Assembly (NCBI GenBank): GCA_017469785.1
Contig: JAFUFU010000047.1
Coordinates: 37,147-101,146, forward strand
Direction: 5' to 3'
Source of the DNA: Treponema sp.
GTDB taxonomy: Bacteria; Spirochaetota; Spirochaetia; Treponematales; Treponemataceae
Length of the DNA: 64,000 nucleotides
A program made the translations under genes and the position numbers. Below the pieces are notes generated by a model. That model saw nothing but the letters and a program-made list of their open reading frames with translations. It did not search any database and was not told where the DNA came from. Of this stretch, positions 48,917 to 63,912 are shown piece by piece (within the stretch, counting starts at the first letter, position 1; each line of letters starts with the position of its first letter).

Positions 48917-49110
48917 AATAATACCTCATAAAAACAGTCATTCCGAATTTATTCCGGAATCTTTTTTCGATGTTTTCTCCAGCGTTTACCGGCTTCATAA
49001 GCGATAAAAACCGACATCTTTCTGTATTTTACCGAATTTGCAGACTTTTATCCATAATTTCAAAAATCTTTCATTACAAATCCTACTCTCTGTGTTATAC
49101 TTAAAACAGT

Positions 49111-52100
49111 ATGGAAATTTCAAAAAAACTGATGCGTCTTATGGATGTCGCGGTCCTTGTTTTCCTTTCCGCACTTTCCTTTTCTCAGGAATCCAATGTT
49201 ATCCGTGGTAAGACGGATTCTTCATTCTTCTCTGATTTCGTGCATCGTGTATATAACACCTCTGACGGTCTCCCAGGAATGACCATAGTTTCCCTCATTC
49301 AGGATAAAAAGGGCTACATCTGGCTTGGCTCATACGACGGGCTTGTGCGTTTTGACGGCGTTGAATTCAGTGTTTTCAGTCGCTATACGGATTCCAAGTA
49401 CGGTTTTAATTCCGCCCGGACAATTTTTTCGGATTCTCATGAGAATATCTGGGTCGGACACAACGGCGAAGGCCTCACTTGTATCAGGCATGACGGTGCC
49501 GTCATCAAATACGAGAAAAATGATGGTCTTGCCGACAACAAGATAGGTGCAATCTGCGAGGACAGGGAAGGAAACATCTGGATTGGAACGTCCATGGGTA
49601 TCAGCTGCATCAATGCGGACGGCGAATTTTTCACTCCTCCGGGGCTTTCTGAGCTGGGAATGGAGCATGTTACCGTGGCAAGGCTTTTTGTGGACCTTGA
49701 TGGCAGAGTCTGGGTCAGCACAGGCAGCGAGGACTGCATACTTGTCTTTGAAAACGGAACCTTCCGCAAATTTGACGGCATCACCAAAATAAAAAATCCC
49801 ACTGTAAGGGGAATTTATCAGGACAGGTCCGGCGCATACTGGTTTGGGGCCGATCCCCATCTGGCAATCAGGATTAAGGACGGGGAGGAGACTGTTTTTG
49901 ACATCGGACATGAGCACACGAACGGAACTGCAATCGACTCAATCTCCGAAGATTCTGCCGGAAACATTTGGTTCTCCACTGACGGCGGGCTTACCGTGCT
50001 TCATGACGGCCTTTTTTCCTATTATGACAAGCTGAATGGCGCTCCCGACAACGGTGTTAACGGTTTTCTTGAGGACAGCGAGGGAAATTTCTGGATTTCA
50101 TACAACCGGGGCGGCGTTGAGAAACTGAGCAACGGAAAATTCCGCACTGTCCGCAACGATGCGCCGGTGAATGCGATATGCGGAGACTCCTTCCGGGGAA
50201 TTGTCTGGATTGCTACGGATAACGGACTTCGCGCCTATAATGGCAAGGATTTCGTCGATAACGAAATCACTGAATTCTGCAAAGGTGCCCGGATCCGTCA
50301 TGTAGAAGTTATTCCTGACGGCGAGCTTCTCATTTCATCCTATTCCGACACCATACCGCAGATTAGGGTCTCAAAGGACAATGAAATCACAGTATGGACA
50401 AAAGACGACGGTTTTTCTGACATAAAATCACGGGTCTCAATCAAGACCCAAAACGGCGACTATTACGCAGGCACAACGCTGGGGCTGAATATTTTGTGCC
50501 ATGAAGACGGAAAAATCATTACCGTCAGGAAGGAAAACGGACTGTCAAGCAACGACTACATCATGTGGCTTTACGAAGATTCCGAGGGGCAGGTCTGGGT
50601 AGGAACCAACGGCGGCGGCGTCTACATCATGAAAGACAGAAAGGTCATAAGGCATTACGGCACGGACGAAGGTCTTTCAGGAAATGTCATATTTAAAATA
50701 AGAACGATAGGCACCCATATCTGGATTGCAACCGGAACAGGAATCTCCATGTACAACAAGGAAAGCGATTCCTTCATAAATTTCAATTCAAGCATGGGGC
50801 TTGGAACGGACAGCGTTTTCCAGATTCTTGTCGACCACACGAACACTGCATGGATGACAACGAACAAAGGAATTTTCTCCGCCGATTTTGCGGAAATGCT
50901 GGAAGTGGCGAACGGATACAAGAGCCGCATTAGCGTCAAATACTATGGCAATTCTGACGGACTCATTACGAACGGAGTTACCAGCGTTTCTTCCGGCTCA
51001 ATCGATGTCTATGGCCGCGTCTGGTTCCCGCTGGTGGACGGCTTCGCTATCTATGACCCTGCAAAATCAGGCAGAAACACGATTCCTCCAAAGGTTGAAA
51101 TACAAAACTACGTGATTGATAACGAGGTTCACGATTATCACGGTGAGACCATCGTGATTCCTGCCGGCGCAAAACGTCTTTTCATAAAATATACTGCCCT
51201 CAGTTTCATTTCCTCAGAAAGCATCAGGTTCTCAAACATGCTTTCAGGATTCGAGGACAAATTTTCCATGTGGATGCCTTCCCGTGTCTCGACATACACA
51301 AACTTGAAGTACGGGAATTATGAGTTCAAGGTAAAGGCCGAAAACAGCGACGGTGTTTCCGGGGAGCCAAAGGTTGTCCAGATTGTAAAGGAGCCCTACC
51401 TGTGGGAGCTTTGGTGGTTCTGGGCTGCCTGCGGTGGTGCCGTTATTTTGCTCATTTCTCTTGCGATTATCCACAAAATCAGAAACATGCGCAGATACCA
51501 GATTGAGCTTGAGCAGAAGGTCGAGGAGAGAACCAGGGAGCTGAAACTCGCCAATGAAAAGGCTGAAAATCTTCTCCTGAACATCCTGCCGGAACAAATC
51601 GCTGAGGAACTGACGGAACATCCTGACCGCACGATTGCGAAAAGCTATCCGAACGCCACCGTGCTTTTCACGGACATAGTCGGATTTACAAAACTGAGCG
51701 GCAAAATGACTGCACGGAATGTCGTCGCCATGCTGAACCTGATGGTTTCCCGCTTTGATGAGCGGGCCAAACAGATGGGAATTGAGAAAATCAAGACTAT
51801 AGGGGACGCATACATGGCTGCCACCGGCCTGACTGAGACTGCCGATAAAACCAGCGCGAAAAAAATGATTTTTTTCGCAAAAGGGCTGATTTCTGATGTG
51901 GAAAAATTCAACGCCAAGTACAAAACCAACGTAAAAATCCGCGTCGGGATAAATACCGGAGAGCTGGTTGCCGGCGTAATCGGAAAAAGCAAGTTCATTT
52001 ATGATATCTGGGGGGATACTGTGAACGTGGCCAGCCGCATGGAAAGCACCGGAGAGCCCATGCGGATTCACGTCAGTGAAAATACTTACATGCAGACGGC

Positions 52101-52176
52101 TGCTGCCTTCCCTTATGGCTCCGCAATTGAAATCGAGGTGAAGGGGAAGGGATTGATGAGAACCTTTTTCCTGTAG
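49111..52176 (+). CDS. beta-propeller sensor fused to class III adenylate cyclase
   Basis: 1021 residues. A signal peptide or anchor (about 1-26) is followed by many two-component-propeller repeats (for example GYIWLGSYDGLVRFDG, GNIWIGTSMGISCIN, GQVWVGTNGGGVYIM), a Y_Y_Y-like sandwich (about 690-752), one membrane helix (about 767-788), a coiled coil and a cyclase domain. The metal Asp is in VLFTDIVGF (about 853). Lys in KIKTIGDAYM and Asp in YDIWGDTVN are the adenine-specifying residues, so cAMP is the expected product. The sensor faces the periplasm. A TATACT box lies 9 bases before the ATG. Confidence 0.9.
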   Translation: MEISKKLMRLMDVAVLVFLSALSFSQESNVIRGKTDSSFFSDFVHRVYNTSDGLPGMTIVSLIQDKKGYIWLGSYDGLVRFDGVEFSVFSRYTDSKYGFNSARTIFSDSHENIWVGHNGEGLTCIRHDGAVIKYEKNDGLADNKIGAICEDREGNIWIGTSMGISCINADGEFFTPPGLSELGMEHVTVARLFVDLDGRVWVSTGSEDCILVFENGTFRKFDGITKIKNPTVRGIYQDRSGAYWFGADPHLAIRIKDGEETVFDIGHEHTNGTAIDSISEDSAGNIWFSTDGGLTVLHDGLFSYYDKLNGAPDNGVNGFLEDSEGNFWISYNRGGVEKLSNGKFRTVRNDAPVNAICGDSFRGIVWIATDNGLRAYNGKDFVDNEITEFCKGARIRHVEVIPDGELLISSYSDTIPQIRVSKDNEITVWTKDDGFSDIKSRVSIKTQNGDYYAGTTLGLNILCHEDGKIITVRKENGLSSNDYIMWLYEDSEGQVWVGTNGGGVYIMKDRKVIRHYGTDEGLSGNVIFKIRTIGTHIWIATGTGISMYNKESDSFINFNSSMGLGTDSVFQILVDHTNTAWMTTNKGIFSADFAEMLEVANGYKSRISVKYYGNSDGLITNGVTSVSSGSIDVYGRVWFPLVDGFAIYDPAKSGRNTIPPKVEIQNYVIDNEVHDYHGETIVIPAGAKRLFIKYTALSFISSESIRFSNMLSGFEDKFSMWMPSRVSTYTNLKYGNYEFKVKAENSDGVSGEPKVVQIVKEPYLWELWWFWAACGGAVILLISLAIIHKIRNMRRYQIELEQKVEERTRELKLANEKAENLLLNILPEQIAEELTEHPDRTIAKSYPNATVLFTDIVGFTKLSGKMTARNVVAMLNLMVSRFDERAKQMGIEKIKTIGDAYMAATGLTETADKTSAKKMIFFAKGLISDVEKFNAKYKTNVKIRVGINTGELVAGVIGKSKFIYDIWGDTVNVASRMESTGEPMRIHVSENTYMQTAAAFPYGSAIEIEVKGKGLMRTFFL

Positions 52177-52182
52177 AAAATC

Positions 52183-52983
52183 CTAGCTCCACTGGCTGGG
52201 GCGTTTGTTGTACTTGAAAGTGTACCTCGCTCCCAGATAGCGGCTTACAAAACGGCTCATGAAAGCGGTGAATTTCCACTTTGCCGACCACAAAATGATT
52301 CTCTTTCCCCGCCTTGCTTTTTTAAGGCAGTGGGCGACTACGGCGACCGGGTCTTTTCCGTGGAGGACTTCTTTTCTGGCTCCGTTTGAGGCCACATTCG
52401 CAAAGTCCGTACTTACGCTTCCGGGGCAGAGGGCGCTCACTCGGATTTTTTTGTCTTTCAGCTCAGCCGAAAGTGCCACCGAGAATGACAGGGCGTATGC
52501 TTTTGTCGCCGCATAGACTGCGAAATTTCCCAGAGGCAGAAAGGCCGCAAGGGATGCCACATTGATAATCGAAGAGCCTTCGCGCAAAAAGGGCAGAATC
52601 GCACCGCAAAGGCCTGTCAGTGTCGTGCAGTTCAAATCAATCATCTCAAGTTCCTTTTCCAGCGGAGTGCTGGCGAATTCTCCGTAAGTGCCGAATCCCG
52701 CATTGTTCACCAGCATGTCGATTTCATAAGGACCGGAAATCTTCTCTGTGGCAAGAAAGGTCTTGAAAAGTGCGACTCCTTCCTTTCCCGCAAGATTCAT
52801 GGGAACAATTTTGACATTAGGAAAATCCCCTTTAATTTCATCTTTGACCGACTCAAGTTTTTCTTTATTTCGGGCAAAAAGCCAAATCTCGCTGCTTTCT
52901 GTTTTTTCGTCCCTTGCAATCTGCCGTGCGAATTCCGCGCCCATGCCGGAACTCGCGCCCGTAATAATCGTAATCTTTCGCAT
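52183..52983 (-). CDS. short-chain dehydrogenase/reductase
   Basis: 266 residues of the classical SDR fold: TGASSGMGAEF for cofactor binding, NNAGFG, the catalytic Ser in INVASLAAF and YxxxK in VYAATKAYA, and CPGSVSTDF. It resembles the DltE/YqjQ group, and the substrate is unknown. The start is the ATG at 52983, preceded 6 bases upstream by TATAAT on the minus strand. It ends 7 bases from the convergent cyclase gene. Confidence 0.88.
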   Translation of the reverse strand: MRKITIITGASSGMGAEFARQIARDEKTESSEIWLFARNKEKLESVKDEIKGDFPNVKIVPMNLAGKEGVALFKTFLATEKISGPYEIDMLVNNAGFGTYGEFASTPLEKELEMIDLNCTTLTGLCGAILPFLREGSSIINVASLAAFLPLGNFAVYAATKAYALSFSVALSAELKDKKIRVSALCPGSVSTDFANVASNGARKEVLHGKDPVAVVAHCLKKARRGKRIILWSAKWKFTAFMSRFVSRYLGARYTFKYNKRPSQWS

Positions 52984-52989
52984 GAGAAG

Positions 52990-52995
52990 ATTATA
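52990..52995 (-). promoter_or_regulatory. -10 box 6 bases before the SDR start
   Basis: On the minus strand a perfect TATAAT is followed by 6 bases and the ATG, with no Shine-Dalgarno. Confidence 0.6.
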
Positions 52996-53010
52996 GCACA
53001 AAAAGATGAA

Positions 53011-53060
53011 TTAGAGACACGAATTAAAAAAAAAGGCACGAATTGCACTAATTAACACGA
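53011..53060. repeat. ACACGAATTA-type intergenic repeat
   Basis: Tandem-like words GACACGAATTA, GGCACGAATTGCACTAATTAACACGAATA lie between the divergent SDR and GH3 genes. Similar words (CACTAATTGGACTAATTACAC) occur between azlC and azlD. Confidence 0.5.
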
Positions 53061-53080
53061 ATAGAAAAATGGGGTAGAAT
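53052..53080 (+). promoter_or_regulatory. GH3 gene promoter, leaderless arrangement
   Basis: TTAACA (53052-53057), 17 bases, TAGAAT (53075-53080); the ATG at 53088 is 7 bases further on. Confidence 0.55.
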
Positions 53081-53087
53081 CAAAAAC

Positions 53088-54584
53088 ATGAAAAATCATC
53101 CGCGTTCATCAGCGTTCATCAGCGTCATGCGACATCCTGTCGCGACAAGTTTTTTTTGCAAAAAACTTGCGGTTTTTCCGTCTTTTTCCCACATCCGTGT
53201 GGGCTTTTTGCTTCTAATTGTATTTTCTTTACTTTCCTGCAGCAAAAGGCCCTCGCCGGAAGAAATTGAAGCCCGGCGGCTTTTGGAACTTGCCCGGCTG
53301 GAGGAGGCAATTCAGAATGCGAAAAATGCCGCCATTTCAGAATATGTCGCTTCTCTTTCCGATGAAGTCAAAATCTCCCAGCTTTTTCTCGTGAACATCG
53401 AGGGGAATCAGAAATATTCTGCCGTCGAAAAAACTGGCTCTCTATACGGAAAAGCAGGCGAGGGAAATCCCCTTGTGCCCGGCGGTGTGCTTCTTTTTTC
53501 TTATAATATCTCGAAGGACCCCCTTGAAACTTATGAATACATCAAGTCAATTCGTGATTTTTATCTTGAGAACGAGAATCTGCCCCCTTATGTCGCAGTC
53601 GATCAGGAGGGCGGGGACGTGAACCGGCTTCGCGGGCTTACCAGCGTGCTCTGGGCGCAGAAAAAAGTCGCCGATTCCTTTTCCCTTGAAGGCGCGTCTG
53701 CCCTGTATTCGGCTCAGGCCCGCCAGATGAAAAATCTCGGCTTTCACATGAATCTTGCCCCTGTGGTTGAGGTTTTGACCGAAAAAAATCAGGATTTTCT
53801 GGATACCCGTTCTTTCGGAAATCTTGAGGCTGTCCTTTCTTACGGAGAAATTGCCATCAACTCTTACGAAGAGATGGGAATCGCCGTGGTCTTAAAGCAT
53901 TTCCCCGGAAATTCCAACGCGGATCCCCATATAGGTCTTCCAAAAATCACTTATTCAGCCTCAGACTATGATTCTTATTTCAAGCCTTTTGAAGTCCTGC
54001 TTCCCAAAGCCAGTGCCCTCTTAATGAGCCACGCGATTATGAAAGAGGATAAAGACCTTTCGGCTGGGGAAATTTTTTCCCTTGAAGATTCTGATGTTCC
54101 TGCCTGTTTTTCGCGTCACTGGATTCGGGATGTCGCTAAAAATCAGTATAAATTCGATGGACTTATCTTCTCTGACGATATTTTCATGGGTGCTCTTTCA
54201 AAAAACGGCTATCCGCCGGAAAAAGCTGCCCTTGAGGCAATCAAAGCCGGCGTGGATGTAATCATGCTCTCAGAAAAGCGTTTCGGAGGCGTGGCAGGTA
54301 TCCTTCTTTCAAAGGCAAAAGAAGACCAGGACTTCGCTAAAGAAATAAACCGCGCCGCCGAGAATGTAATTCGCTACAAAATCAAGGCTGGAATCCTTGA
54401 GCTGATTGAAATGGACGATGGAGCAGGGGAATACTCTGAACTGAAAGATTCGCCCTTCCAAAAAAATGACGAAAAAATCCCTTCCTTTTCTGTAAAGGTC
54501 AAACATGATTACGCTGATTTTGATTTGTACCGCTTCAACGAAGATTACAAAGCAGGAATGAAAGCCTTTGAGATGTCAAAATGA
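53088..54584 (+). CDS. GH3 beta-N-acetylhexosaminidase-like lipoprotein
   Basis: 498 residues. From about residue 37 there is a signal peptide with lipobox LLSC (Cys about 51), then a GH3 barrel: VAVDQEGGDVNRL, KHFPGNSNADPH (about 270, the NagZ-like motif with the acid/base His) and the nucleophile Asp in FSDDIFMGAL (about 363). It probably trims N-acetylhexosamine from cell-wall fragments. The first 36 residues come from repeat- and hairpin-rich DNA (TGCGACA-TCC-TGTCGCG; CCCACA-TCCG-TGTGGG followed by T), so a later start is possible: ATG at 53127 or the GTG in RVGFLLLIVF. Its last eight codons plus stop form the left 27-bp direct repeat. Confidence 0.85.
   Translation: MKNHPRSSAFISVMRHPVATSFFCKKLAVFPSFSHIRVGFLLLIVFSLLSCSKRPSPEEIEARRLLELARLEEAIQNAKNAAISEYVASLSDEVKISQLFLVNIEGNQKYSAVEKTGSLYGKAGEGNPLVPGGVLLFSYNISKDPLETYEYIKSIRDFYLENENLPPYVAVDQEGGDVNRLRGLTSVLWAQKKVADSFSLEGASALYSAQARQMKNLGFHMNLAPVVEVLTEKNQDFLDTRSFGNLEAVLSYGEIAINSYEEMGIAVVLKHFPGNSNADPHIGLPKITYSASDYDSYFKPFEVLLPKASALLMSHAIMKEDKDLSAGEIFSLEDSDVPACFSRHWIRDVAKNQYKFDGLIFSDDIFMGALSKNGYPPEKAALEAIKAGVDVIMLSEKRFGGVAGILLSKAKEDQDFAKEINRAAENVIRYKIKAGILELIEMDDGAGEYSELKDSPFQKNDEKIPSFSVKVKHDYADFDLYRFNEDYKAGMKAFEMSK
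54558..54584 (+). repeat. left 27-bp direct repeat of the DGR cassette
   Basis: This sequence encodes the GH3 C-terminus MKAFEMSK plus the stop codon. It is identical over 27 bases to 58684-58710, and the flanking bases differ on both sides. Confidence 0.95.
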
Positions 54585-54626
54585 TTTTTTTATGGAAATC
54601 GTGGTTTCCTAAAAGCCAATAGCTGT

Positions 54627-54632
54627 TATAAT
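54627..54632 (+). promoter_or_regulatory. -10 box of the template-repeat transcript
   Basis: A perfect TATAAT stands about 190 bases before the template repeat, with only a weak -35 region upstream. No open reading frame is expected to be translated from this transcript. Confidence 0.55.
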
Positions 54633-54823
54633 GCTTTTGATTAGTCCAGAATCCATAGTGCCACGGTGTTGTGGAGCGAGACTTAGCTTTTTGCGAAAAA
54701 GGGTGGAATTACCCCGTGTCAAAAAATGATGCTTTCCAGGCATCAGGAATTTTCCTTTCGTGGGGTATGGCTTTTTGCGGAAAATATGGCAATCCGCCCG
54801 CTTTTCTAGAAAATTCCACGAAA

Positions 54824-54946
54824 ATTGGTCGTCTAGTCAGAACGCTTCCAACAATAACAATGCCTGGAATGTGTGGTTCGACGACGGCAACTTGAACAAC
54901 AACAACAAGAACAACAACAAATCGGTTTGTACAGTTCGTGCTTTTT
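54824..54946 (+). repeat. DGR template repeat (TR)
   Basis: 123 bases matching the VR (57779-57904) except at positions that are mostly adenine here. The central 80 bases hold 16 AAC, AAT, AAG or AAA codons in the VR frame, about 35 adenines in all. AAY codons can be altered at both A positions without creating stops. Both ends match the VR exactly: TTGGTCGTCTAGTCAG on the left and a 25-base stretch ending GTTCGTGCTTTTT on the right, the expected initiation region. Confidence 0.95.
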
Positions 54947-54959
54947 CGCAAGGCTTTTT

Positions 54960-54992
54960 GGCTGCCCGGAGTTTTTGGACAGCCATTTTTTT
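54960..54992 (+). terminator. terminator of the template RNA
   Basis: GGCTG (54960-54964) pairs with CAGCC (54980-54984), continued by CC/GG after one mismatch, and is followed by ATTTTTTT. It ends the TR transcript just before the Avd gene. Confidence 0.7.
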
Positions 54993-55005
54993 GTTAAAAT
55001 GAACT

Positions 55006-55347
55006 ATGGCACTGTATTATGATTTACCTGTTTTTAAAGATTCCTACAAACTCACTCTGAGCCTTTTCCAGCTCACTTCGCATTTTCCCCGCGAGTACAA
55101 ATTTACCCTCGGACAGGACATGAAGAGGGATTGCCTCGCACTTGTTCGTTCTATTTACCGCGCGAACAAAAACAAGGATAAGCTTCTCTATCTTGAGCAG
55201 TTTCTGGACACCTTTGAGGTCGTCAAGCTGGAAATTCGCTTGTGCGTTGATTTAATGCTCATTTCCCGCACAGCTCAGGCAGATTTGCTCCGCTCAATCG
55301 ACAGCATCGGCAGGCAGATTACGGCATGGAGAAATTCATGCAGGTAA
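55006..55347 (+). CDS. avd: DGR accessory protein Avd (four-helix bundle)
   Basis: 113 residues, mostly helical, with the Avd/S23-like pattern LTSHFPREYKFTLGQDMKRDCLALVRSIYRANKNKDK and LEIRLCVDL. In Bordetella phage DGRs Avd forms a basic pentamer that binds the reverse transcriptase and the template RNA and is needed for mutagenic homing. It lies between TR and reverse transcriptase and overlaps the latter. A TAAAAT box ends 5 bases before the ATG and there is no Shine-Dalgarno, so it may be expressed from a leaderless message. Confidence 0.9.
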   Translation: MALYYDLPVFKDSYKLTLSLFQLTSHFPREYKFTLGQDMKRDCLALVRSIYRANKNKDKLLYLEQFLDTFEVVKLEIRLCVDLMLISRTAQADLLRSIDSIGRQITAWRNSCR

Positions 55348-56531
55348 ACAGCCCGGCTCCTCCTGCGACTTTTTCCAAAGATTTGCTTTCCTTTGAGGAA
55401 GTCCTTTGCGCTTATTTTGACTGCCGGAGAACGAAACGCTGGTCTTTAGGGGCACTGGAATTTGAAGTTGATTATGAGCATAATCTTTTCACTCTTTACG
55501 ACGATTTGATTGACGGAAACTGGAAGCCCGGTAAATCTTCCTGTTTTATCGTGACACAGCCTGTCATTCGTGAAATTTTTGCAGCTCCCTTCCGTGACAG
55601 GATTGTGCATCATCTTCTCATAAATCGGCTCAATCCATACTTTGAGCCTTACTTTATCCGTGACAGTTATGCCTGCCGGAAAGAAAAAGGAATTTTTGCC
55701 GCTATTTCCCGCTTGGAGCATTTTATCCGCTCTTGTTCGCAGAATGGCACTAAAGAGACCTTTATCCTCAAAATTGACATCAAAGGATTTTTTATGAGCA
55801 TAAACAGGAGCCTTTTGTGTGAGAAACTCGAAGCATTTATCGATTCAAAGCTTCCTTGTGCAGAATTTGAAAAATCCCTCGTAAGAAAAATCGTTCTATC
55901 AGATCCAACAGAGAACTGCATCCGCCGAAGCCCCGCTCATTTATGGAAAAATCTTCCCCCTGACAAAAGCCTTTTTACATGCAGAAAAGGCTGCGGACTT
56001 CCTATCGGAAATCTTACCAGTCAGGTCTTTGCCAACTTTTATCTTTCTGAATTTGATCACTTTGTAAAGCATACGCTCCATGTTCGCCGATATGTCCGTT
56101 ATGTTGATGACTGCGTGATTGTGCATGAGGATAAACGCTATTTGAAAATGATTCTTCCCGTTTTGCAGAAATTTCTTAAAGAGAACCTTGAGCTTACCCT
56201 TCACCCCAAAAAAATCTACTTGCAGGAGGCGAAGCACGGAGTTGAATTTTTGGGAGCATTCATAAAACCCAGCCATACCGTGAGCGGCAGGCGGATAAAA
56301 CGCAATTTTGTAAAAAAACTCCAGCGTTACGAACGACTTGCGGATGACCACAAGCCCGCAAAAGATGAAAAGAACATGATTCTTTCAAGCGTGAATTCCT
56401 ATCTCGGAATAATGCGTCATTTCAAGACAAAAAAATTCAGGATTCACCAGCTTATGCGTTACTTCAAGAAAAGACTCAAAAATCATTTTTCATTTAAGGC
56501 TTCGGCACTTAAAATTGAGCGGAAAAAGTGA
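55338..56531 (+). CDS. DGR reverse transcriptase
   Basis: 397 residues. The catalytic YVDD is at about residue 255 (RYVRYVDDCVIV), and the motif GLPIGNLTSQ (about 221-229) has the GxxxSQ form that marks DGR enzymes rather than the group II intron or retron form. FLGAFI and the C-terminal basic helix region complete the thumb. No maturase or endonuclease domain is present, as expected. The ATG at 55338 is preceded by GGAG at 6 bases; an ATG 12 bases earlier is possible. It should copy the TR into cDNA with errors at adenines. Confidence 0.96.
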   Translation: MQVNSPAPPATFSKDLLSFEEVLCAYFDCRRTKRWSLGALEFEVDYEHNLFTLYDDLIDGNWKPGKSSCFIVTQPVIREIFAAPFRDRIVHHLLINRLNPYFEPYFIRDSYACRKEKGIFAAISRLEHFIRSCSQNGTKETFILKIDIKGFFMSINRSLLCEKLEAFIDSKLPCAEFEKSLVRKIVLSDPTENCIRRSPAHLWKNLPPDKSLFTCRKGCGLPIGNLTSQVFANFYLSEFDHFVKHTLHVRRYVRYVDDCVIVHEDKRYLKMILPVLQKFLKENLELTLHPKKIYLQEAKHGVEFLGAFIKPSHTVSGRRIKRNFVKKLQRYERLADDHKPAKDEKNMILSSVNSYLGIMRHFKTKKFRIHQLMRYFKKRLKNHFSFKASALKIERKK

Positions 56532-56595
56532 TATAATATTCTCATTCTTTTCGATGAAAAGAAAATCTATTGTCATTGCGGGCGTGACCCGCAAT
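56532..56595 (+). promoter_or_regulatory. target-gene promoter and leader hairpin
   Basis: TATAAT (56532-56537) overlaps the end of the reverse transcriptase gene. In the leader ATTGCGGG (56575-56582) pairs with CCCGCAAT (56588-56595). The hairpin sequence looks like a common intergenic repeat. The target gene therefore probably has its own promoter. Confidence 0.5.
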
Positions 56596-56619
56596 CTCAA
56601 ATTTTAAGGAGGAATGCCT

Positions 56620-57906
56620 ATGAAGCATTTCAAATGGCTCGCACTAATCGCCGCCGCGGTTTTTGCGATTGGATTTGTTGCTTGTACGCCTCATGGAGTC
56701 GGTCCTGGCGATGAAGCAGGCATAAAGTATTACACTGTCACCTTTGACAGCGACGGCGGAAGCGCAGTGGAAAAACAGACCGTTGAAAGCGGAAAGACCG
56801 CAACCAAGCCTGCCGACCCCGCAAAAGCGTCCACTGCAAGTATTGAATACACTTTTGCCGGCTGGTACAGCGGTGACACAGCTTTTGATTTTGCTACGGC
56901 AATTACGTCGGACATCACGCTGAAAGCAAAATGGACTGAGAAAGCGATACCCCCGGCCAATCCGGGTACGTACACTGTAACAATCGCAGGCGGCATTGAA
57001 AATGGCACTGTCAACACAGACAAGTCCACAGCTGCAAAAGGTGACACCGTAACGCTCACCCTTTCTGCAACAGATAACTATGAGCTCGAAACGATTTCCG
57101 TAAAGGACGCAAGCAACACCGAAGTCACGACAACCGAAGTGACTAAAGGAAGCTCTTACACCTTCACCATGGGTGAAAGCAATGTAACCGTCAGCGCGAC
57201 ATTCAAGAAAAAAGCCGCAACCCCAACCTACATCGGAACGAAAGCCCCGAGCGAGGCGAAAGCCGTGGGCGACATCGTGTTCTCGGACGGCTCGGCGACG
57301 CCGTACAGCACGGATTTGACGCTTTCAAACGCACAGAAAGACTCTGCCGTCGCAGTGATTTACTATGCGGGAAGTAGTGCGGAGGATGTGCTCGGAGTAA
57401 AAACACTCGGCGTGGGCTTGAAGAACACGGGAACTGACAGCACCCTTGCATGGGCGAAGAATCCCGACACGGACATCACGGCAATCCAGTGTACGCCAGT
57501 CGAAAATGCGGCGACAGCGAAATTCTCGGGCGACACAGACGGAAGCGACAACTGGCAGGCTCTCTGTGATGCGGTAAGCGACGAAGGCACGAGCGGCAAC
57601 TACCCCGCTTGGGAGTGGGTGAACGCCTATGCCACGACGACAGTCAATCTCACGGGGGATTACGCAAACGGCTGGTATCTTCCCACGGTCGCAGAACTTT
57701 CTATGCTGTACCGGGTAAAAGACACCGTGAACAGAGCGCTTGAAAAAGCCGGCGGAACGGAAATCGCTGACGAAGCCTATTGGTCGTCTAGTCAGTCCGC
57801 TTCCTACAATGGCCGTGCCTGGAGTGTGTGGTTATCCGACGGCCGCTTGTATGGCTACAACTACAAGAACTTCAACCTGTCGGTTTGTACAGTTCGTGCT
57901 TTTTAA
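56620..57906 (+). CDS. DGR target: variable surface lipoprotein with lectin-like C-terminus
   Basis: 428 residues, starting at the ATG 7 bases after AAGGAGG (an ATG 6 bases earlier is too close). Signal peptide with lipobox FVAC; a Listeria-Bacteroides-type repeat (YYTVTFDSDGGSAVEKQ to ITLKAKWTE); a second sandwich (YTVTIAGGIENGTVNTD to NVTVSATFKK); then a DUF1566/C-type-lectin-like domain with GWYLPTVAELSMLY and EAYWSSSQ. The final 42 residues are encoded by the VR and end SVCTVRAF. This is the build of the T. denticola TvpA target. It is probably displayed on the cell surface as a variable ligand-binding protein. Confidence 0.93.
   Translation: MKHFKWLALIAAAVFAIGFVACTPHGVGPGDEAGIKYYTVTFDSDGGSAVEKQTVESGKTATKPADPAKASTASIEYTFAGWYSGDTAFDFATAITSDITLKAKWTEKAIPPANPGTYTVTIAGGIENGTVNTDKSTAAKGDTVTLTLSATDNYELETISVKDASNTEVTTTEVTKGSSYTFTMGESNVTVSATFKKKAATPTYIGTKAPSEAKAVGDIVFSDGSATPYSTDLTLSNAQKDSAVAVIYYAGSSAEDVLGVKTLGVGLKNTGTDSTLAWAKNPDTDITAIQCTPVENAATAKFSGDTDGSDNWQALCDAVSDEGTSGNYPAWEWVNAYATTTVNLTGDYANGWYLPTVAELSMLYRVKDTVNRALEKAGGTEIADEAYWSSSQSASYNGRAWSVWLSDGRLYGYNYKNFNLSVCTVRAF
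57779..57904 (+). repeat. DGR variable repeat (VR)
   Basis: 126 bases aligned to the TR. By hand, 20 of 23 substitutions fall at TR adenines. The other three are C to A, G to T and C to T. The VR also has one extra codon within the AAC-rich stretch. Variable residues include SxxSY, GR, S, LS, R, YGY and FNL where the TR would give asparagine or aspartate. Confidence 0.95.
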
Positions 57907-57948
57907 CAAGGGAGCGGAAGCGACCGATTCAACAATTCAACTATTTAA

Positions 57949-57981
57949 CCCCTTTTCCGCACCTTCGGGGCGGAAAAGGGG
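57949..57981 (+). other. stem-loop downstream of the VR
   Basis: CCCCTTTTCCGC (57949-57960) pairs with GCGGAAAAGGGG (57970-57981), with a bulged A, two more C-G pairs and a TTCG tetraloop. It starts 43 bases after the target stop codon. In the Bordetella phage DGR a similar hairpin/cruciform past the VR is required for efficient target recognition; the same role here is inference. Confidence 0.8.
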
Positions 57982-58005
57982 CGCGAATTTTTTTCGCAAA
58001 GAAAG

Positions 58006-58039
58006 GGCAATTTCCCCCGCGGGAAGTTGCCTTTTTTTT
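58006..58039 (+). terminator. terminator of the target gene
   Basis: GGCAATTTCCC (58006-58016) pairs with GGGAAGTTGCC (58021-58031), followed by eight T. Confidence 0.9.
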
Positions 58040-58095
58040 GCGTTCGTTGAAAAAATCGCATGGGTGTGGTAGTATATAGCTGCGAGGTGATTGAT

Positions 58096-58314
58096 ATGAC
58101 GGTAGTTATAAACAATGCGAGCGGAACTTTCTTACAAGCCCTCAAGGCGATGGCAAAATTAGACGGAGCTTCTGTTTCTGTTGATGATTACGGTTATTAT
58201 TCAAAAAAGACCGTGAATTCTGTCCTAAAAGCCGAAAAAAAAATGGAAAAAGAACGTAAAAATGGAACATTGAAAGTATACAACACCGTTGATGAAATGT
58301 TCGGAGATTTGTAA
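58096..58314 (+). CDS. probable antitoxin
   Basis: 72 residues starting at the ATG behind GAGGTGA. It begins TVVINNASGTFLQALKAMAKLDG and ends with an acidic helix (TVDEMFGDL), a form common to antitoxins that wrap a RelE-fold toxin. No DNA-binding motif can be named. The stop is 2 bases before the toxin start. A longer frame from 58060 lacks a Shine-Dalgarno. Confidence 0.7.
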   Translation: MTVVINNASGTFLQALKAMAKLDGASVSVDDYGYYSKKTVNSVLKAEKKMEKERKNGTLKVYNTVDEMFGDL

Positions 58315-58316
58315 GA

Positions 58317-58610
58317 ATGGCGGAAGAGGAAGTTTATAAATACAAACTTGCGCAATCTTCAGCATTCAAAAAGGACATGAAATCGCTTTCTGCTGAGGAG
58401 CGCGAAGAAACAAAGGAAGTGATTCGAAAACTTGCAAAAGGCGAGACTCTCGATGAAAAATATCATGACCATCAGCTTTTGGGAAAACTCAAAGATTTTC
58501 GAGATTGCCATATACGCCCCGATTTGGTTCTTATATACCGAATAAAAGAAAATATCCTTGAATTATATGTTTACAGAATCGGAACTCACAGTAAATTGTA
58601 TAAAAAATAA
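58317..58610 (+). CDS. YafQ/RelE-family toxin
   Basis: 97 residues of the type II mRNA-cleaving toxin fold. The segment YHDHQLLGKLKDFRDCHIRPDLVLIYRI followed by RIGTHSKLY matches YafQ, including histidines equivalent to its catalytic ones. It is coupled to the preceding antitoxin. Lying within the direct-repeat-bounded cassette, it may help keep the cassette in the genome. Confidence 0.85.
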   Translation: MAEEEVYKYKLAQSSAFKKDMKSLSAEEREETKEVIRKLAKGETLDEKYHDHQLLGKLKDFRDCHIRPDLVLIYRIKENILELYVYRIGTHSKLYKK

Positions 58611-58683
58611 AAAAGTTTGCTTTCTGCACGTACTAGCACAAAACAAAGTGTTAAAAACGAGTGAAGTCTGGTATCTTTTCACC

Positions 58684-58710
58684 ATGAAAGCCTTTGAGAT
58701 GTCAAAATGA
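58684..58710 (+). repeat. right 27-bp direct repeat of the DGR cassette
   Basis: Identical to 54558-54584. Here it contains a micro-ORF (MKAFEMSK, then stop) whose ATGA overlaps the methyltransferase start codon at 58707. A TATCTT box ends 6 bases before its ATG. Confidence 0.95.
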
Positions 58711-59534
58711 AACAGAAAGACCGTAACAAAAAACTTTCCGGCGCGGAAGGATTCGACTCTTATTACTCAAATCTCTTTGGCGTGCGCTGGCTTTCCATAA
58801 AAAAAGCTTTCTCTCTTGAGCCAGATTATGCCGAATGGAAGGCTGGCGGAGAAAAATCCTACTTTCTGGATTCAGGCTCTGTGAGGGCTGCGGTCTCTCT
58901 TCCCCTTGAAAATGCGACCGATATCCTTGATTTGTGCGCGGCTCCCGGCGGAAAAACCCTGGTGCTGGCCTCAAACATGAATGAGGGCGCAAATCTTCTC
59001 TCAAACGAACGCTCCCCGGAGCGCAAGAATCGGCTTTTAAATACAGTGCGCGACTGTCTGCCTGAGTCCGTGCAGGAGCGGGTGCAGGTGATTTGCAAGG
59101 ACGGTGCGGTCATGTGCAAGGCAAACGAGGCTTCTTTTGACGCGATTCTCCTCGATGCTCCCTGTTCTTCAGAAAGGCATGTACTTGCGGACGAAAAATA
59201 TCTTTCAGAGTGGTCGCCTTCCCGCATCAAAACGCTTTCAATGGCTCAGTGGGCGCTTTTGTCGTCAGCATGGAGAATGTTGCGGGAGGGAGGTTTTCTT
59301 CTATATTCAACCTGTGCCCTTTCCCCTGACGAAAATGACAATGTAATTGAGAAACTTCTTAAAAAATTCGATGATGTGCAAGTCTGTCAGCCGGAAATTT
59401 CCCTCAACTATAAAGATTTTACTGATTCTGAACTTCCCGACTACGAAAACACGAAATTTGGCGCTCACATTCTGCCAGATAAAGCAAATGGCGCCGGGCC
59501 TCTTTATTTCTGTCTTTTAAGAAAAAATCACTAG
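58707..59534 (+). CDS. RsmB/NSUN-family RNA m5C methyltransferase
   Basis: 275 residues. SAM-binding LCAAPGGKT is near residue 77, motif IV is DAPCSS (about 150, the releasing Cys) and motif VI is YSTCAL (about 197, the nucleophile Cys). It should make 5-methylcytosine in rRNA or tRNA. It lacks the N-terminal NusB-like domain of RsmB, so RsmF- or NSUN6-like targets are as likely. Before the cassette arrived, its ATG would have overlapped the GH3 stop codon. Confidence 0.9.
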   Translation: MKQKDRNKKLSGAEGFDSYYSNLFGVRWLSIKKAFSLEPDYAEWKAGGEKSYFLDSGSVRAAVSLPLENATDILDLCAAPGGKTLVLASNMNEGANLLSNERSPERKNRLLNTVRDCLPESVQERVQVICKDGAVMCKANEASFDAILLDAPCSSERHVLADEKYLSEWSPSRIKTLSMAQWALLSSAWRMLREGGFLLYSTCALSPDENDNVIEKLLKKFDDVQVCQPEISLNYKDFTDSELPDYENTKFGAHILPDKANGAGPLYFCLLRKNH

Positions 59535-59607
59535 ACACAGTCCCGAATATTTTGATATTATCTAAAGACATATTTGCTAGAGTGTTTTTTTATGAACACA
59601 AGGAGGA

Positions 59608-60132
59608 ATGTTGGCAGATTCAAAAGGGTTGCGAATCAATGAACAGATTCGTGTACGAGAGGTCAGACTTGTTGACGAAGAGGGTGGAAGAAACGGAATC
59701 ATTCCGACACGCGAAGCCCTCGAACTTGCAAAAGAGCGAGAGCTTGACCTTGTAGAAGTTTCGCCAAACGCAAATCCGCCGGTTTGTAAAATTCTTAACT
59801 ACGGCAAGTATCGGTTCGAGCAGGAAAAAAGGCTCCGTGATTCCCGCAAGGCCCAAAAAACCCTTAAGCTCAAGGAAATCCGTATGCAGCCCAAAATCGG
59901 CGCAGGCGACCTTGATACTAAGGCAAAGCATGTTCAGGAATTCCTTGACGAAGGCGATAAGGTCAAAGTTACCATCCGTTTCCGCGGTCGTGAGCTTGCC
60001 CATACCGAACTCGGCTATGATGTACTGAACGAAGTATTGAAAAGGCTTACCGAAGGTTCATATTCCGTAGAAAAGCCTGCCGCAATGGAAGGGCGCTTCA
60101 TGTCAATGACGCTGAACGCCAAGGCCAAATAA
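59608..60132 (+). CDS. infC: translation initiation factor IF-3
   Basis: 174 residues with both IF-3 domains ([22 protein letters not shown] and [38 protein letters not shown]). It heads infC-rpmI-rplT. The start is ambiguous: the ATG at 59608 is one base from AAGGAGG, while the TTG at 59611 is better spaced. Unusual infC start codons serve autoregulation in other bacteria. An overlapping 16-codon frame (59592-59642) starts upstream and runs through the infC start. Confidence 0.95.
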
Positions 60133-60147
60133 GCTAGAGTCCAAAAT

Positions 60148-60161
60148 CTCCCGAGCGGGAG
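60148..60161 (+). other. hairpin between infC and rpmI
   Basis: CTCCCG-AG-CGGGAG, 6 perfect pairs, about 30 bases before rpmI and with no T run. In E. coli and Bacillus this operon is autoregulated by L20 or by leader structures, but this small hairpin alone does not prove that here. Confidence 0.45.
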
Positions 60162-60190
60162 TACTTTAGTTATTACAAGAGGTGGCAAAA

Positions 60191-60391
60191 ATGCCAAAAA
60201 TGAAGACAAAGAAAGCCGCAGCGAAACGATTTTCTTTCACTGGAACAGGCAAAGTTAAGTACAAGAAGATGAATCTTCGCCATATCTTGACGAAGAAATC
60301 TGCAAAACGCAAGATGCATCTTCGCCATGCAGGAATTCTCTCTGAGGATTCATCAGCAAAAATCCGCAAGCAGTTGCTTCCGTACGGTTAA
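60191..60391 (+). CDS. rpmI: 50S ribosomal protein L35
   Basis: 66 residues, starting [23 protein letters not shown], the invariant L35 opening, very basic, with the C-terminal [10 protein letters not shown]. The ATG at 60191 has AGAGGTGG upstream; a GTG nine bases earlier lies inside that box. Confidence 0.96.
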
Positions 60392-60415
60392 TTGAAAGGT
60401 TATAAGGAGTAAATA

Positions 60416-60775
60416 ATGTCTAGAGCAGTAGATGGAACAAAACGAAATAACCGCCGTGCAAAAATCTTAAAGCTTGCAAGCGGCTTCACTGGACGTCGTG
60501 GAACTAACTACAAAGCAGCAAAAGACGCAGTCGTAAAGGCTCTCCGCCATGCTTACGTTGACCGCCGGGACCGCAAGGGTGATTTCCGCCAGTTGTGGAT
60601 TGCCCGTATCAACGCTGCAGTTCGTGAGGAAGGTCTTTCATACTCACGCTTTATCAATGGTCTTAACAAGGCTGGTATCACATTGAACCGCAAGGCTCTC
60701 TCAAACCTCGCCATCGAAGACCCGGCAGCTTTCAAAGCAGTCGTTGAGGCTGCTAAAAAAGCTCTCGAAGCGTAA
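60416..60775 (+). CDS. rplT: 50S ribosomal protein L20
   Basis: 119 residues matching L20 throughout ([59 protein letters not shown]). L20 binds 23S rRNA early and is the usual autorepressor of this operon. AAGGAG precedes the ATG. Confidence 0.97.
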
Positions 60776-60801
60776 TTCTTTTTTACAAAAAAGGAAAATT
60801 T

Positions 60802-61443
60802 ATGATTTCATTCGATCAAGTTCTGTTATTGGAAGAAAAGGTTGAAAGCGCTGTTAAAAAAATCGAACAGCTTAATGCTGAGAATGCTGCTTTGCGTAGC
60901 AAATGCGCAGAGCTTTCAAACGCACTTGAAGCAAAAACGGAGCAGTTTTCATCTTTTGAATCGAATCAGAGCAAGATCGAAGAGGGAATTTTAAAGGCTT
61001 TGAGCCGTCTGAATGCCGTGGAGAATGTCGTTCTCTCTGCATCAGCGGCGCAGAGCCCTTCTGCTTCAGGCGTCACGGAACTTCATACAGAGCCACAGCC
61101 GAATGTTGGGGAATCCGTCTTGTCTCCGGCTGGCGCAAATCCAACTGTTTCCGAGCCTCTTATTCAGGCTTCTGACAGTGCTCTTGTGAATGTGTCTGTT
61201 TCGCAGCCGGTTTCTTCTCAGCCGGAAGCTTCGGAACAGCAGCCGCCTCAGGTACAGGCTTATAATCAGCCTGCGCTTCAAAACGAAGCCGATTCTTTTT
61301 CTTCTTCTGAATCCCTTGCCCCGAATGTTGATTTTGAATTCGGCGATTCTGAGCCCGCTTCACTTGAAAATCCTCAACAAGTCCCAGGGCAGTCATCAAC
61401 TTCCGCTTCGGCTCCTTCCCAGCCAATGTTTGATATTTTCTAG
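60802..61443 (+). CDS. ZapB-like coiled-coil protein with a Ser/Pro/Gln-rich tail
   Basis: 213 residues. Residues 1-75 form a coiled coil starting SFDQVLLLEEKVESAVKKIEQLNAENAALRSKCAEL, as in ZapB-like division proteins of spirochaetes. The rest is low-complexity (Ser, Ala, Pro, Gln, Glu) and ends in the hydrophobic PMFDIF. It stands 2 bases before a ZapA-like gene, which supports a division role, perhaps with the tail tethering another factor. Function is inferred from context. Confidence 0.7.
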   Translation: MISFDQVLLLEEKVESAVKKIEQLNAENAALRSKCAELSNALEAKTEQFSSFESNQSKIEEGILKALSRLNAVENVVLSASAAQSPSASGVTELHTEPQPNVGESVLSPAGANPTVSEPLIQASDSALVNVSVSQPVSSQPEASEQQPPQVQAYNQPALQNEADSFSSSESLAPNVDFEFGDSEPASLENPQQVPGQSSTSASAPSQPMFDIF

Positions 61444-61445
61444 GT

Positions 61446-61769
61446 ATGGGGTCTCTTCAAATAGACGTCTTCAATCCTCCCTTTGTCATTCAGGTAAATG
61501 AGGACGATGAGTATCTTCAGAAACTTCTCTGGTACTACAAAAAAATCATCGAGCGTATTCAACGAAATGGCGTTCTAAAAAACCCGCTTCAGATTTCCTC
61601 TCTCGCTGGCATAATGCTCTGCGACGAGCTTTACAAGGAAAAATCAAAATCTCAGGTTTCAAAGGGTGATGCCGGCTCCTCTGGTGTTTTTTCAAATTCT
61701 GAAGAAAGCGATGAGGCCGAGCGAATTACAAAAATGCTGATTGAAAAAATAGACAAGGCGCTCCAGTAA
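61446..61769 (+). CDS. zapA: ZapA-like cell-division protein
   Basis: 107 residues. The N-terminal part LQIDVFNPPFVIQVNEDDEYLQKLLWYYKKIIERI and LQISSLAGIMLCDELYKEK follow the ZapA pattern, and a C-terminal helix ends the protein. ZapA cross-links FtsZ filaments at the division site. It follows the ZapB-like gene closely, and its stop overlaps the next start (TAATG). Confidence 0.78.
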   Translation: MGSLQIDVFNPPFVIQVNEDDEYLQKLLWYYKKIIERIQRNGVLKNPLQISSLAGIMLCDELYKEKSKSQVSKGDAGSSGVFSNSEESDEAERITKMLIEKIDKALQ

Positions 61770-62251
61770 TGTATTCTTTTTCTGTTTGGGTCGATGCCGA
61801 TTCCTTTCCCGCGCTGGCCAGGAAATTTCTTGCGGAGCATGCCCTTGGGAAGGGGGTAGAGGTTCTTTTTGTCGCAAATCATGAATTAAAAGTTCCGGAT
61901 GAAAGAGTCAAGATGATAGTCTGTGAAAAACTCGAGGGGGCAGCCGATGATTACATCTGCAATCACGCCTGTGAAAATGATATAGTCGTAACCCGGGACA
62001 TACCTTTTGCCTCTCGGCTTGTTCAAAAAAACATCGCGGTAATGAACGACCGTGGCCTTCTCTTTTCAAAAGAATCGATTGAAGACAAGCTTCGTGAGCG
62101 CGATTTCAGCCTGAATCTGGCTGAACTTGGGCTCGGCGGGAAAAAAGAGAATTTTTACGGTGAAAAAGAACTGAAGAAATTCTCCACGCTTTTTATTGAA
62201 GAGCTTCAAAAGCATATAATCGCCGATATTTATCACGTCAAGCGCCGTTAA
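61769..62251 (+). CDS. YaiI/YqxD-family (DUF188) protein
   Basis: 160 residues. The opening VWVDADSFPALAR with its acidic residues, then DDYICNHACENDIVVTRDIPFASRLVQK and MNDRGLLF, are the DUF188 hallmarks. The fold is related to PIN-type nucleases with conserved acidic residues, but no activity is established. It is coupled to zapA by a one-base overlap. Confidence 0.9.
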   Translation: MYSFSVWVDADSFPALARKFLAEHALGKGVEVLFVANHELKVPDERVKMIVCEKLEGAADDYICNHACENDIVVTRDIPFASRLVQKNIAVMNDRGLLFSKESIEDKLRERDFSLNLAELGLGGKKENFYGEKELKKFSTLFIEELQKHIIADIYHVKRR

Positions 62252-62291
62252 AGCGTAAAGCCCCCCTGTTAGAAATTGGGGAGAGGGAAAA

Positions 62292-63599
62292 CTATTTTTT
62301 ACCCATCCTTTCGTATGCGGCGTTTATGGAAATGATGCGGTCTTTTACTTCCAAAAAAGCAAGGACGAGTGACGGGTCGAACTGTTTTCCGGAAAGGCTC
62401 TGAATTTCTATGAATGCGTCGTCGATTGACCATGCTTCCTTGTATACCCGGGCATGTGAGAGAGCGTCGAATACATCGGCAATGGCCACGATTCTTGCGG
62501 ACAGCGGAATTTCCTCGCCTTTGAGAGGCTCTGTTTTCTGAATCGGCTTGCCGATTTCATAGTTCAGATAGTCGATTTTTCCAGGATATCCCTTTTCGCT
62601 TCCGTCCCACCATTCGTGATGGTGCAGTGCCACGTCCCGTGACATCAAGTCGATGTCCGATTCCGGCTCCGTAAAAAGCTGCGCGCCGACGCAAGTGTGT
62701 CCCATCATGATTGCGCGTTCTTCATCGGTGAATCTGCCCGGACCTGGCTTTTTTAATATGACGTCCGAGATACCGACCTTTCCCAAGTCATGGCATTTTG
62801 CTGCAATCTTGAGGATATCACGATATTTCATGCGCTCTTCTTTAGGAACATTGTGGTTGAGCGCCCACTGGTCGTAGATTTCCAGTGAAAAATCAGAAAC
62901 GCGCTCGACATGGGTTCCCGTTTCTTTCGGATCCCTGAATTCCGCCATACGCTGCATTCGCTTGATCATGTTGCTGGTCAGGTAGGTGTGTTCGAGAGCC
63001 TGCGTGACGCTTGAAGCGAATTGTTTGATGAATTCAACGGATTCTTCTGAAAAAGGTATGACTTTCTCGTTTTCATCCTTTGCGTTGATAATCTGGATAA
63101 CGCCGAGTGTCTGTCCGCTGCTTGTAATCAATGGAACCGTAAGCATGGACACTGTTTTGTATCCTGTCGATATGTCGGTGCTGCTGTTGAACGTATAAGG
63201 AGTATTCCCTTCAATATGGTATGCATCAGGGATGTTGAGCGTTTTTCCTGTGCATGCGCAGTAACCGGCAATAGAAGATTTTGTGATAGGAACGGTAAAG
63301 TAAACGTAAGGAGACTTTGATTCTGGACGTGCTGTCTTTTGGTGAGTGTCATTCTGTGCATATTTTATTCTGAGCAATTTTGTATTAAAAACTGATTCTT
63401 CCTCAGTATATGCGACCGCTGGAACGGTTGAAGGTTGTTTTTCTTCGATTACGTATATAGAACCAGCGTCGGCGTTTGCGATGGAGCGCGCTTCCGTCAG
63501 GATTCGTTCCAAAAGGACATCCGTATCCCTGATTTCATTGAGTAGTTTTTCTGTTTCAAAAACTTTCTGTAATTTTATCGCGTCAAGAGCCTTAGACAT
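62292..63599 (-). CDS. GAF-HD-GYP cyclic di-GMP phosphodiesterase
   Basis: 435 residues: a GAF-like sensor domain (about 25-200, ending VPLITSSGQTLGVIQIINAKD), a short linker helix, then an HD-GYP domain. The metal-binding HD is in AAKCHDLGK (about 268), and the HHHEWWDGSEKGYP motif (about 326) is complete, so it should break down cyclic di-GMP. It has no membrane helix and should sense a cytoplasmic signal. It opposes the GGDEF enzyme at the other end of the window in function. It is convergent with the DUF188 gene. Confidence 0.92.
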   Translation of the reverse strand: MSKALDAIKLQKVFETEKLLNEIRDTDVLLERILTEARSIANADAGSIYVIEEKQPSTVPAVAYTEEESVFNTKLLRIKYAQNDTHQKTARPESKSPYVYFTVPITKSSIAGYCACTGKTLNIPDAYHIEGNTPYTFNSSTDISTGYKTVSMLTVPLITSSGQTLGVIQIINAKDENEKVIPFSEESVEFIKQFASSVTQALEHTYLTSNMIKRMQRMAEFRDPKETGTHVERVSDFSLEIYDQWALNHNVPKEERMKYRDILKIAAKCHDLGKVGISDVILKKPGPGRFTDEERAIMMGHTCVGAQLFTEPESDIDLMSRDVALHHHEWWDGSEKGYPGKIDYLNYEIGKPIQKTEPLKGEEIPLSARIVAIADVFDALSHARVYKEAWSIDDAFIEIQSLSGKQFDPSLVLAFLEVKDRIISINAAYERMGKK

Positions 63600-63731
63600 A
63601 CTTTATCCTATATCAGAGAAATTATAGTTTAATTGCTGTAAATAGTCTAGAAAAAATCAGATAACAACCGCATAAACTTTTAAACATTTATCAGTGAATT
63701 TATAATAAGAAGTTTTTCGTGTTTTTAATCC

Positions 63732-63871
63732 GGCGCCAGTATGCCGAGCTCCGCCGTTCCGCGGCTCGGTGCCCTCGGCGGAGGCCCGGGGCCTCCGCTG
63801 GCTTCTGCCACCGCTCCATGGCGTGGCGTCACCTGCCCGGCGGCTGCGGGTCCGTCCCGCAGGGCGTGGGG
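63732..63871. other. GC-rich, highly structured island
   Basis: About 140 bases of markedly higher GC than anything nearby, with dense hairpins: GCGGAGGCC-CGG-GGCCTCCGC (63778-63798), CCGAGC...GCTCGG (63744-63768) and CTGCGGG...CCCGCAG (63844-63862). AT-rich runs flank it. An open frame exists on the minus strand (PHALRDGPAAAG...), but the composition suggests structure rather than protein. It could be a dispersed repeat or structured RNA, and it stands directly before the rRNA promoter. The rest of 63600-63731 shows nothing recognisable. Confidence 0.6.
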
Positions 63872-63912
63872 AAAAAAAGAATTTTTTTTTTTTGAAAAAA
63901 ATAAAAAAAGTG

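Follow-up and report, generated by a model that had tools for sequence, protein, structure and literature searches.

Positions 54558-58710 of a 64,000-nt stretch of Treponema sp. DNA (contig JAFUFU010000047.1; hereafter the window) carry a complete diversity-generating retroelement (DGR) of the Avd type, which very probably rewrites the tips of surface lipoproteins and was acquired horizontally by this lineage as a compact unit. The best reading of the data is that an intact DGR with exchangeable targets has spread among Treponema as a compact cassette, as suggested by sequence comparison. The evidence comprises adenine-directed differences between a template repeat (TR) and three variable repeats (VRs), intact parts, a hairpin with a compensatory change, an insertion with a duplication, and target DNA found across species. 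The DGR class is already known; as far as the accessible parts of the literature go, the new elements are the insertion, readable with its 27-bp duplication and the toxin module it carries, and the exact fit of a foreign VR to this template. To our knowledge, the entry of a whole DGR into a chromosome without a phage, plasmid or conjugative vehicle is little documented. Here, the pre-insertion site, the insert ends and the duplication are all readable. Moreover, none of the titles and abstract openings in the DGR literature searched names a duplication that flanks a DGR cassette in bacteria. Because the insertion is readable and a foreign target fits the template, the spread of cores and targets can be tested by sampling more strains.

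An initial annotation, made from the sequence, had described a complete DGR in this interval, and all the parts it named lie where it placed them, except the promoter (Table 1). Avd scores above the Pfam bAvd cut-off (65.2 bits against 40; 9.1e-18) and matches the PHROG family 'Avd protein of DGR' (1.3e-22); the NCBIfam Avd model gives 60.2 bits and its cut-off of 80 is not reached. The reverse transcriptase (RT) matches Pfam RVT_1 and a PHROG RT family (2.1e-95). It contains the annotated YVDD and GxxxSQ motifs (the latter here GNLTSQ), and both sets of columns are invariant across eight aligned Treponema RTs. The GxxxSQ motif is a hallmark of DGRs. Among solved structures, the closest to the RT is 8ub7 at 1.2e-35, listed as 'Reverse transcriptase' and presumably the RT of the DGR of Bordetella phage BPP-1, and the runner-up reaches 1.1e-9. 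No NCBIfam RT model exceeds its cut-off, the best being a group II maturase with 104 of 300 bits. Based on the motifs and the 8ub7 and PHROG matches, the RT is assigned to the DGR group. The reading frames of the RT, Avd and the target are uninterrupted, and the motifs of the RT are preserved. A simple scan lists no promoter-like site upstream of TR, where the initial annotation had placed one, and its total of eight sites compares with 4.8 in shuffles (sd 2.4). The annotated terminator after TR is visible by eye as a hairpin and is absent from the list of the same scan, which gives five terminator-like sites against 5.7 in shuffles; neither total clearly exceeds the shuffles.

Table 1. Features of the DGR block and its borders, in window coordinates
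Feature	Position	Strand	Remarks
Chromosomal GH3 family gene, adjoining the insertion on the left	53088-54584	+	Pfam Glyco_hydro_3 3.4e-36
Exact 27-bp direct repeat, left copy	54558-54584	+	last 27 nt of the GH3 gene
Template repeat (TR)	54824-54946	+	123 nt; 40 adenines; AAC runs
Terminator-like hairpin 3′ of TR	~54959-54993	+	by eye
avd, accessory variability determinant	55006-55347	+	113 aa; Pfam bAvd, PHROG Avd
DGR reverse transcriptase	55326-56531	+	401 aa; RVT_1, YVDD, GxxxSQ
Target lipoprotein	56614-57906	+	lipobox-like FVAC (by eye), List_Bact repeat, InlB B-repeat, Lcl_C-like domain; VR at C-terminus
Variable repeat VR1	57779-57904	+	126 nt; ends at the stop codon of the target
Post-VR hairpin	57949-57981	+	15-nt arms; DNA fold of 57906-58035, z = -5.3
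Second hairpin, then T run	58002-58035	+	likely terminator of the target transcript; fold
Putative antitoxin	58096-58314	+	start by eye after GAGGTG
YafQ/RelE family toxin	58317-58610	+	Pfam YafQ_toxin 9.9e-28
Exact 27-bp direct repeat, right copy	58684-58710	+	overlaps the rsmB start codon
rsmB-like rRNA methyltransferase gene, right neighbour	58707-59534	+	Pfam Methyltr_RsmB-F 8.3e-36

Within 54000-59500, the two longest families of direct repeats are pieces of TR and VR. Under neutral scoring, TR and VR1 differ by 21 substitutions, of which 19 lie at TR adenines and 2 elsewhere, and by a 3-nt in-frame insertion in VR1. When the first base beyond the repeat is counted, 19 of 22 lie at adenines (hypergeometric P ~9e-9, with 40 A in 124). 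This recount lowers the 20 of 23 obtained by hand in the initial annotation and upholds the adenine bias; the alignment that it had proposed gives differences concentrated on adenines and not spread evenly over the bases. Furthermore, the 3′ ends of TR and VR1 are identical over 25 nt. When TR was searched against the window's own genome (G000; 3.24 Mb in 63 contigs), one further strong match was found at 1275-1406 of contig C20, besides two of only 20-22 nt. The C20 repeat (VR2) is located at the 3′ end of a 371-aa open reading frame (ORF) with a lipoprotein-type signal by eye. VR2 shows 20 substitutions relative to TR, 18 at adenines and 2 others, as well as 6 extra nt (P 4e-8 with the boundary base). 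As judged from these alignments, one template serves two lipoprotein VRs in this genome, on different contigs. Relative to TR, VR1 has one extra codon in the first AAC run and VR2 has two in the second, and the length changes of the two VRs are thus in different runs. The codon-length differences (+3 nt in VR1, +6 nt in VR2, and a VR 3 nt shorter than its TR in the related genome G038) were considered as a novelty and rejected, because insertions and deletions in AAC repeats are described as a DGR feature in the accessible part of PMC12875486, which cites Wu 2018. A further target-like domain, 63% identical to domain residues 12-139, is present at G000:C22:6-431, where the contig ends before any VR.

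The neighbouring target carries VR1 at its C-terminus, and the Listeria-Bacteroides repeat modules annotated in it are matched by the List_Bact repeat family. The annotated DUF1566-like C-terminus holds as a resemblance to Pfam Lcl_C, with 32.2 bits slightly below the cut-off of 34.9; the target of the DGR in G138 reaches 46.2 bits. The target domain has no match by sequence among solved structures. The C-type lectin fold, a ligand-binding scaffold that the initial annotation had proposed for this C-terminus, is a possibility suggested by the borderline Lcl_C match. The stem-loop expected past the VR was recovered by folding. Collectively, a VR at the 3′ end of the target, the adenine pattern between TR and VR, an accessory protein and a post-VR hairpin are all present, and by these features the locus is assigned to the DGRs.

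Target-like domains also occur in other species, with matches at 1e-8 in 17 of the 39 genomes searched. Among 12 target-like loci compared with the window TR, four align over its full length, namely the window VR, the C20 VR, and one each in G023 and G001. The G023 VR aligns ungapped and differs at 15 positions, all of which are adenines in TR (P 6e-9). The initial annotation had named VR variation absent in all strains as evidence against a DGR; the comparison available is between species only, and as G023 differs from TR in this manner, variation is not absent there. The G023 target protein is 79% identical to that of the window, 139 of 143 positions of the DNA 3′ of the VR match, and one stem pair of the hairpin is T-A in one species and A-T in the other. 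The exchange on both sides of the stem indicates that the pairing has been kept. The longer stretch common to the two targets is 84% identical; otherwise, 19 stretches of G023 (188 kb) share a single 63-bp match with the window (E 1e-10). Seven other G000 loci, the C20 target itself aside, were compared with G023, and two of them have a stretch in common with it, one of 89 bp (88% identity) and one of 1,005 bp (90% identity). The 1,005-bp stretch (L223/L261) adjoins a YafQ-type gene on contig C8.

The orphan target of G001 shows 17 adenine-site and 7 other differences from TR. An RT of the window clade was found neither in G001 (97% complete) nor in G023, the latter a bin 61% complete. The leader of the C20 target (L074, G000:C20 1-387) is 92% identical to that of the G001 orphan target over 389 bp, and the rsmB proteins of G001 and the own genome are 59% identical. 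Both targets of the own genome therefore have close kin, in two different species. Because the G023 target fits the window TR, targets, and probably the core, appear to circulate among species.

The block of 4.1 kb between the two copies of the 27-bp repeat contains TR, avd, the RT, the target, the YafQ toxin and the putative antitoxin. In the relatives, both GH3 and rsmB were detected at 33 loci, and at every one of these they adjoin, with gaps of -31 to 58 bp. In total, 36 rsmB loci were examined, taken from the best 30 of 56 matching genomes (59 searched) and from another search that added 6; the three without a counted pair are the window's own locus, G022, where no GH3 was found, and a contig fragment. 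When the window flanks are aligned to G020, they overlap by 28 bp at the junction, and the 27-mer has two copies in the own genome with up to 3 mismatches allowed. Because GH3 and rsmB are uninterrupted in the relatives, the 4.1-kb block is identified by this comparison as an insertion between them with a 27-bp site duplication; the spanning repeat by itself is weak evidence. The coordinates 54558 and 58710 quoted in the initial annotation are the outer ends of this repeat. Its view that the chromosomal setting is new is borne out, and the cause, namely the insertion, the 27-bp duplication and the toxin module, had gone unrecognised. ORF 58060-58314, which holds the putative antitoxin, has no match in Pfam, PHROG, NCBIfam or PADLOC. 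The five block ORFs scanned against Pfam, PHROG and NCBIfam did not include a recombinase.

The TR/VR differences are exceedingly unlikely to reflect the ordinary divergence of a duplicated segment with no retroelement involved. Duplicated segments do diverge, and TR is rich in A (40 of 123); however, the differences are concentrated on adenines in three VRs with P between 6e-9 and 4e-8, and the RT and Avd are adjacent. TR/VR pairs were also recovered in 6 of 8 Treponema DGR contigs (L066-L073), and their differences sum to 112 at adenines and 14 others. These counts are only supporting, because the method is built to favour mismatches at adenines and the six rows include two that nearly duplicate each other. 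A decaying remnant, in which the VR differences are old and diversification has ended, is an improbable though more substantial alternative. Some drift since the last copying is evident from the two non-adenine differences in each own-genome VR and from the in-frame changes in VR length relative to TR, the G001 orphan target with its mixed differences lies in a genome where the RT of the clade was not found, and any present activity is putative. In contrast, the open frames, the intact RT motifs, the exact 25-nt 3′ end and the absence of any non-adenine difference in the G023 VR argue against decay, and a length change in AAC runs is described as a by-product of DGR copying in the accessible part of PMC12875486.

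The block might also be something other than one insertion, in that the DGR and the toxin module came separately, or a local 27-bp duplication later captured foreign DNA. We regard this as a real but lesser possibility. The toxin module lies 3′ of the target terminator and has its own ribosome-binding site (by eye), the own genome contains two other YafQ-type genes, and the window block has no end sequence in common, by eye, with the blocks of G138 and G084 described below. On the other side, the 27-bp repeat encloses the DGR and the toxin module exactly. Moreover, no second duplication separates the two, since the only other exact repeats of at least 15 bp listed for 48001-64000 are two TR/VR pieces.

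A profile of eight RTs (E <= 1e-40) found the RT clade in 8 of 200 genomes of the genus at 9 loci, the own genome included. In the RT tree of 44 rows, 11 Treponema rows lie on one side of a branch with support 96/91. The Avd-DGRs of G038, G047, G100, G126, G084, G041 and G138 have RTs of the same clade as the window, and their companion genes, gene orders and, where readable, sites differ. In particular, the window has the order TR-avd-RT-target, whereas G038 has avd-TR-RT-target, and both G100 and G138 have target-avd-TR-RT. The genomic neighbours, readable for L066, L067, L068, L070 and L073, differ among themselves, and none of them matches the GH3-rsmB site. G084 and G041 are two species whose DGR contigs share 98.9% identity across 6,554 bp; outside the DGR, identities are 67.7% for an rsmB piece (812 bp), 66.7% for a GH3 piece (582 bp) and 76% for a third piece (109 bp). 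G084 is one of the two nearest species by rsmB among those compared (85%), yet its RT is only 54% identical to that of the window. These comparisons favour horizontal spread of the DGR. As regards possible vehicles, the RT matches 94 phage records and 131 plasmid records, all below 60% identity, with the highest values at 42.8% among the 15 phage matches listed and 35.5% among the 10 plasmid matches listed. A single-protein scan of viral contigs, a mode that reaches close relatives only, gave no RT relative. In G047, two DGR cores lie on separate contigs (L071, L072) of one bin, and their RT genes are 83% identical in DNA.

In a flanking-repeat test of ten Treponema loci, a repeat duplicating adjacent DNA borders three of them, namely those of the window (27 bp), G138 and G084. 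At both ends of the G138 DGR (L070 1950-7171) lies an exact direct repeat of 44 bp that resembles a terminator and is present twice in the G138 genome, and a CI-type repressor and an FRG-domain gene lie between the repeats. An uninterrupted site was not seen for this block, as 18 relatives' loci of the right-hand neighbour lack a homologue of the left-hand gene within ~1.5 kb. The G084 DGR (L068 7153-14166) has at its border a second, incomplete and diverged copy of the 3′ end of adhE, ~500 bp long, with an AbiEii-type gene inside the block and a PIN-domain gene just outside. The distance from adhE to the same next gene is 11.3 kb in G084 and ~0.75-0.83 kb in two of four relatives' loci (G020 and G051); the next gene was not found near adhE in G000 and G038. 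The ends of the G041 contig (L069, G041:C75; positions 1 and 6554) abut at the same adhE-repeat point with 2 bp missing, for which a circular form and an assembly break are equally good explanations. Toxin or defence genes thus occur within the repeats in all three cases, YafQ in the window, AbiEii in G084 and the CI-type repressor with FRG in G138; this is a bare observation on these three blocks.

We tentatively propose, as a possibility that we hold with little confidence, that Treponema Avd-DGRs move as compact cassettes of core, target and toxin or defence gene, which would integrate downstream of chromosomal genes and duplicate the adjacent DNA (27 bp of the GH3 3′ end here; 44 bp, terminator-like, in G138; ~500 bp from the 3′ end of adhE in G084), and that targets, each with its own hairpin after the VR, spread independently and are rewritten from any template present.

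Several points weigh against the horizontal acquisition and spread of an active DGR cassette. The DGR is described here from genes and sequence comparison, and its present activity is a presumption. No listed inverted repeat pairs the inner ends of the block, and no terminal inverted repeats were seen by eye. Exact spanning repeats of at least 20 bp surround the RT in 19 of 85 DGR loci, a count that includes TR/VR and repeated genes; only 34 of the 85 loci have at least 2.5 kb on both sides. Of the ten Treponema loci, G100 and G038 have no repeat beyond TR/VR, and in L069, L079, L080, L081 and L095 the sequence on one side of the RT extends no further than 3.2 kb. Because the Treponema RT rows group together, the transfer indicated is confined to the genus. 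Of the 12 target-like loci, eight do not align to TR over its full length and show low scores and mixed differences. Finally, the relatives are mostly draft bins, and misbinning may affect the DGR contigs of G041 and G047, which are short, as well as the target contig of G023.

The DGR of BPP-1 diversifies a tail protein. By analogy with that system, the Avd-RT complex would reverse-transcribe the TR RNA and make its errors at adenines. The resulting cDNA would replace the VR of the adjacent target and also that of one or more lipoproteins encoded at other loci, with the hairpin after each VR assisting the replacement. The lipoprotein would be exposed at the surface and bind variable ligands. 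The block probably entered as one event, in which the GH3-rsmB site would have been duplicated over 27 bp.

As described in the accessible parts of the literature, BPP-1 (PMC12875486) likewise has an RT, Avd, TR, VR, A-specific changes and an inverted repeat after the VR; unlike BPP-1, the window DGR is chromosomal, has a lipoprotein target and the order TR-avd-RT-target, and serves at least two targets. The DGR of Treponema denticola (PMC4891356) is similar in its genus, in having targets near and far from the core and orphan targets, and in repeated gain and loss. In contrast, its accessory is HRDC, whereas that of the window is Avd, and the resemblance of the window target to Lcl_C (DUF1566) is a further difference. 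The statement of the initial annotation that DGRs are known in Treponema is therefore correct for the class, and the T. denticola system it cited is of a different type. The Legionella pneumophila DGR (cited in PMC4891356 and PMC8867640) also has a surface lipoprotein target and resides on a horizontally acquired island; unlike that island, the window element spans 4.1 kb, and its five scanned ORFs include no recombinase. A review (PMC8867640) describes DGR mobility as 'fixed', without selfish proliferation, yet reports DGRs in phages, plasmids and conjugative elements, seemingly moving between genomes. The same accessible parts already report remote and orphan targets with gain and loss in Treponema (PMC4891356), Avd (PMC12875486), and DGR transfer between genomes (PMC8867640, PMC8144416). 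DUF1566 and DGRs have also appeared together in print (PMC4159848, PMC6642488).

Elsewhere in the window, an exact 30-bp direct repeat is present at 5650-5679 and 17371-17400, 11.7 kb apart, upstream of ClpB-like and flagellar-type genes (names by eye), and is possibly a shared regulatory element.

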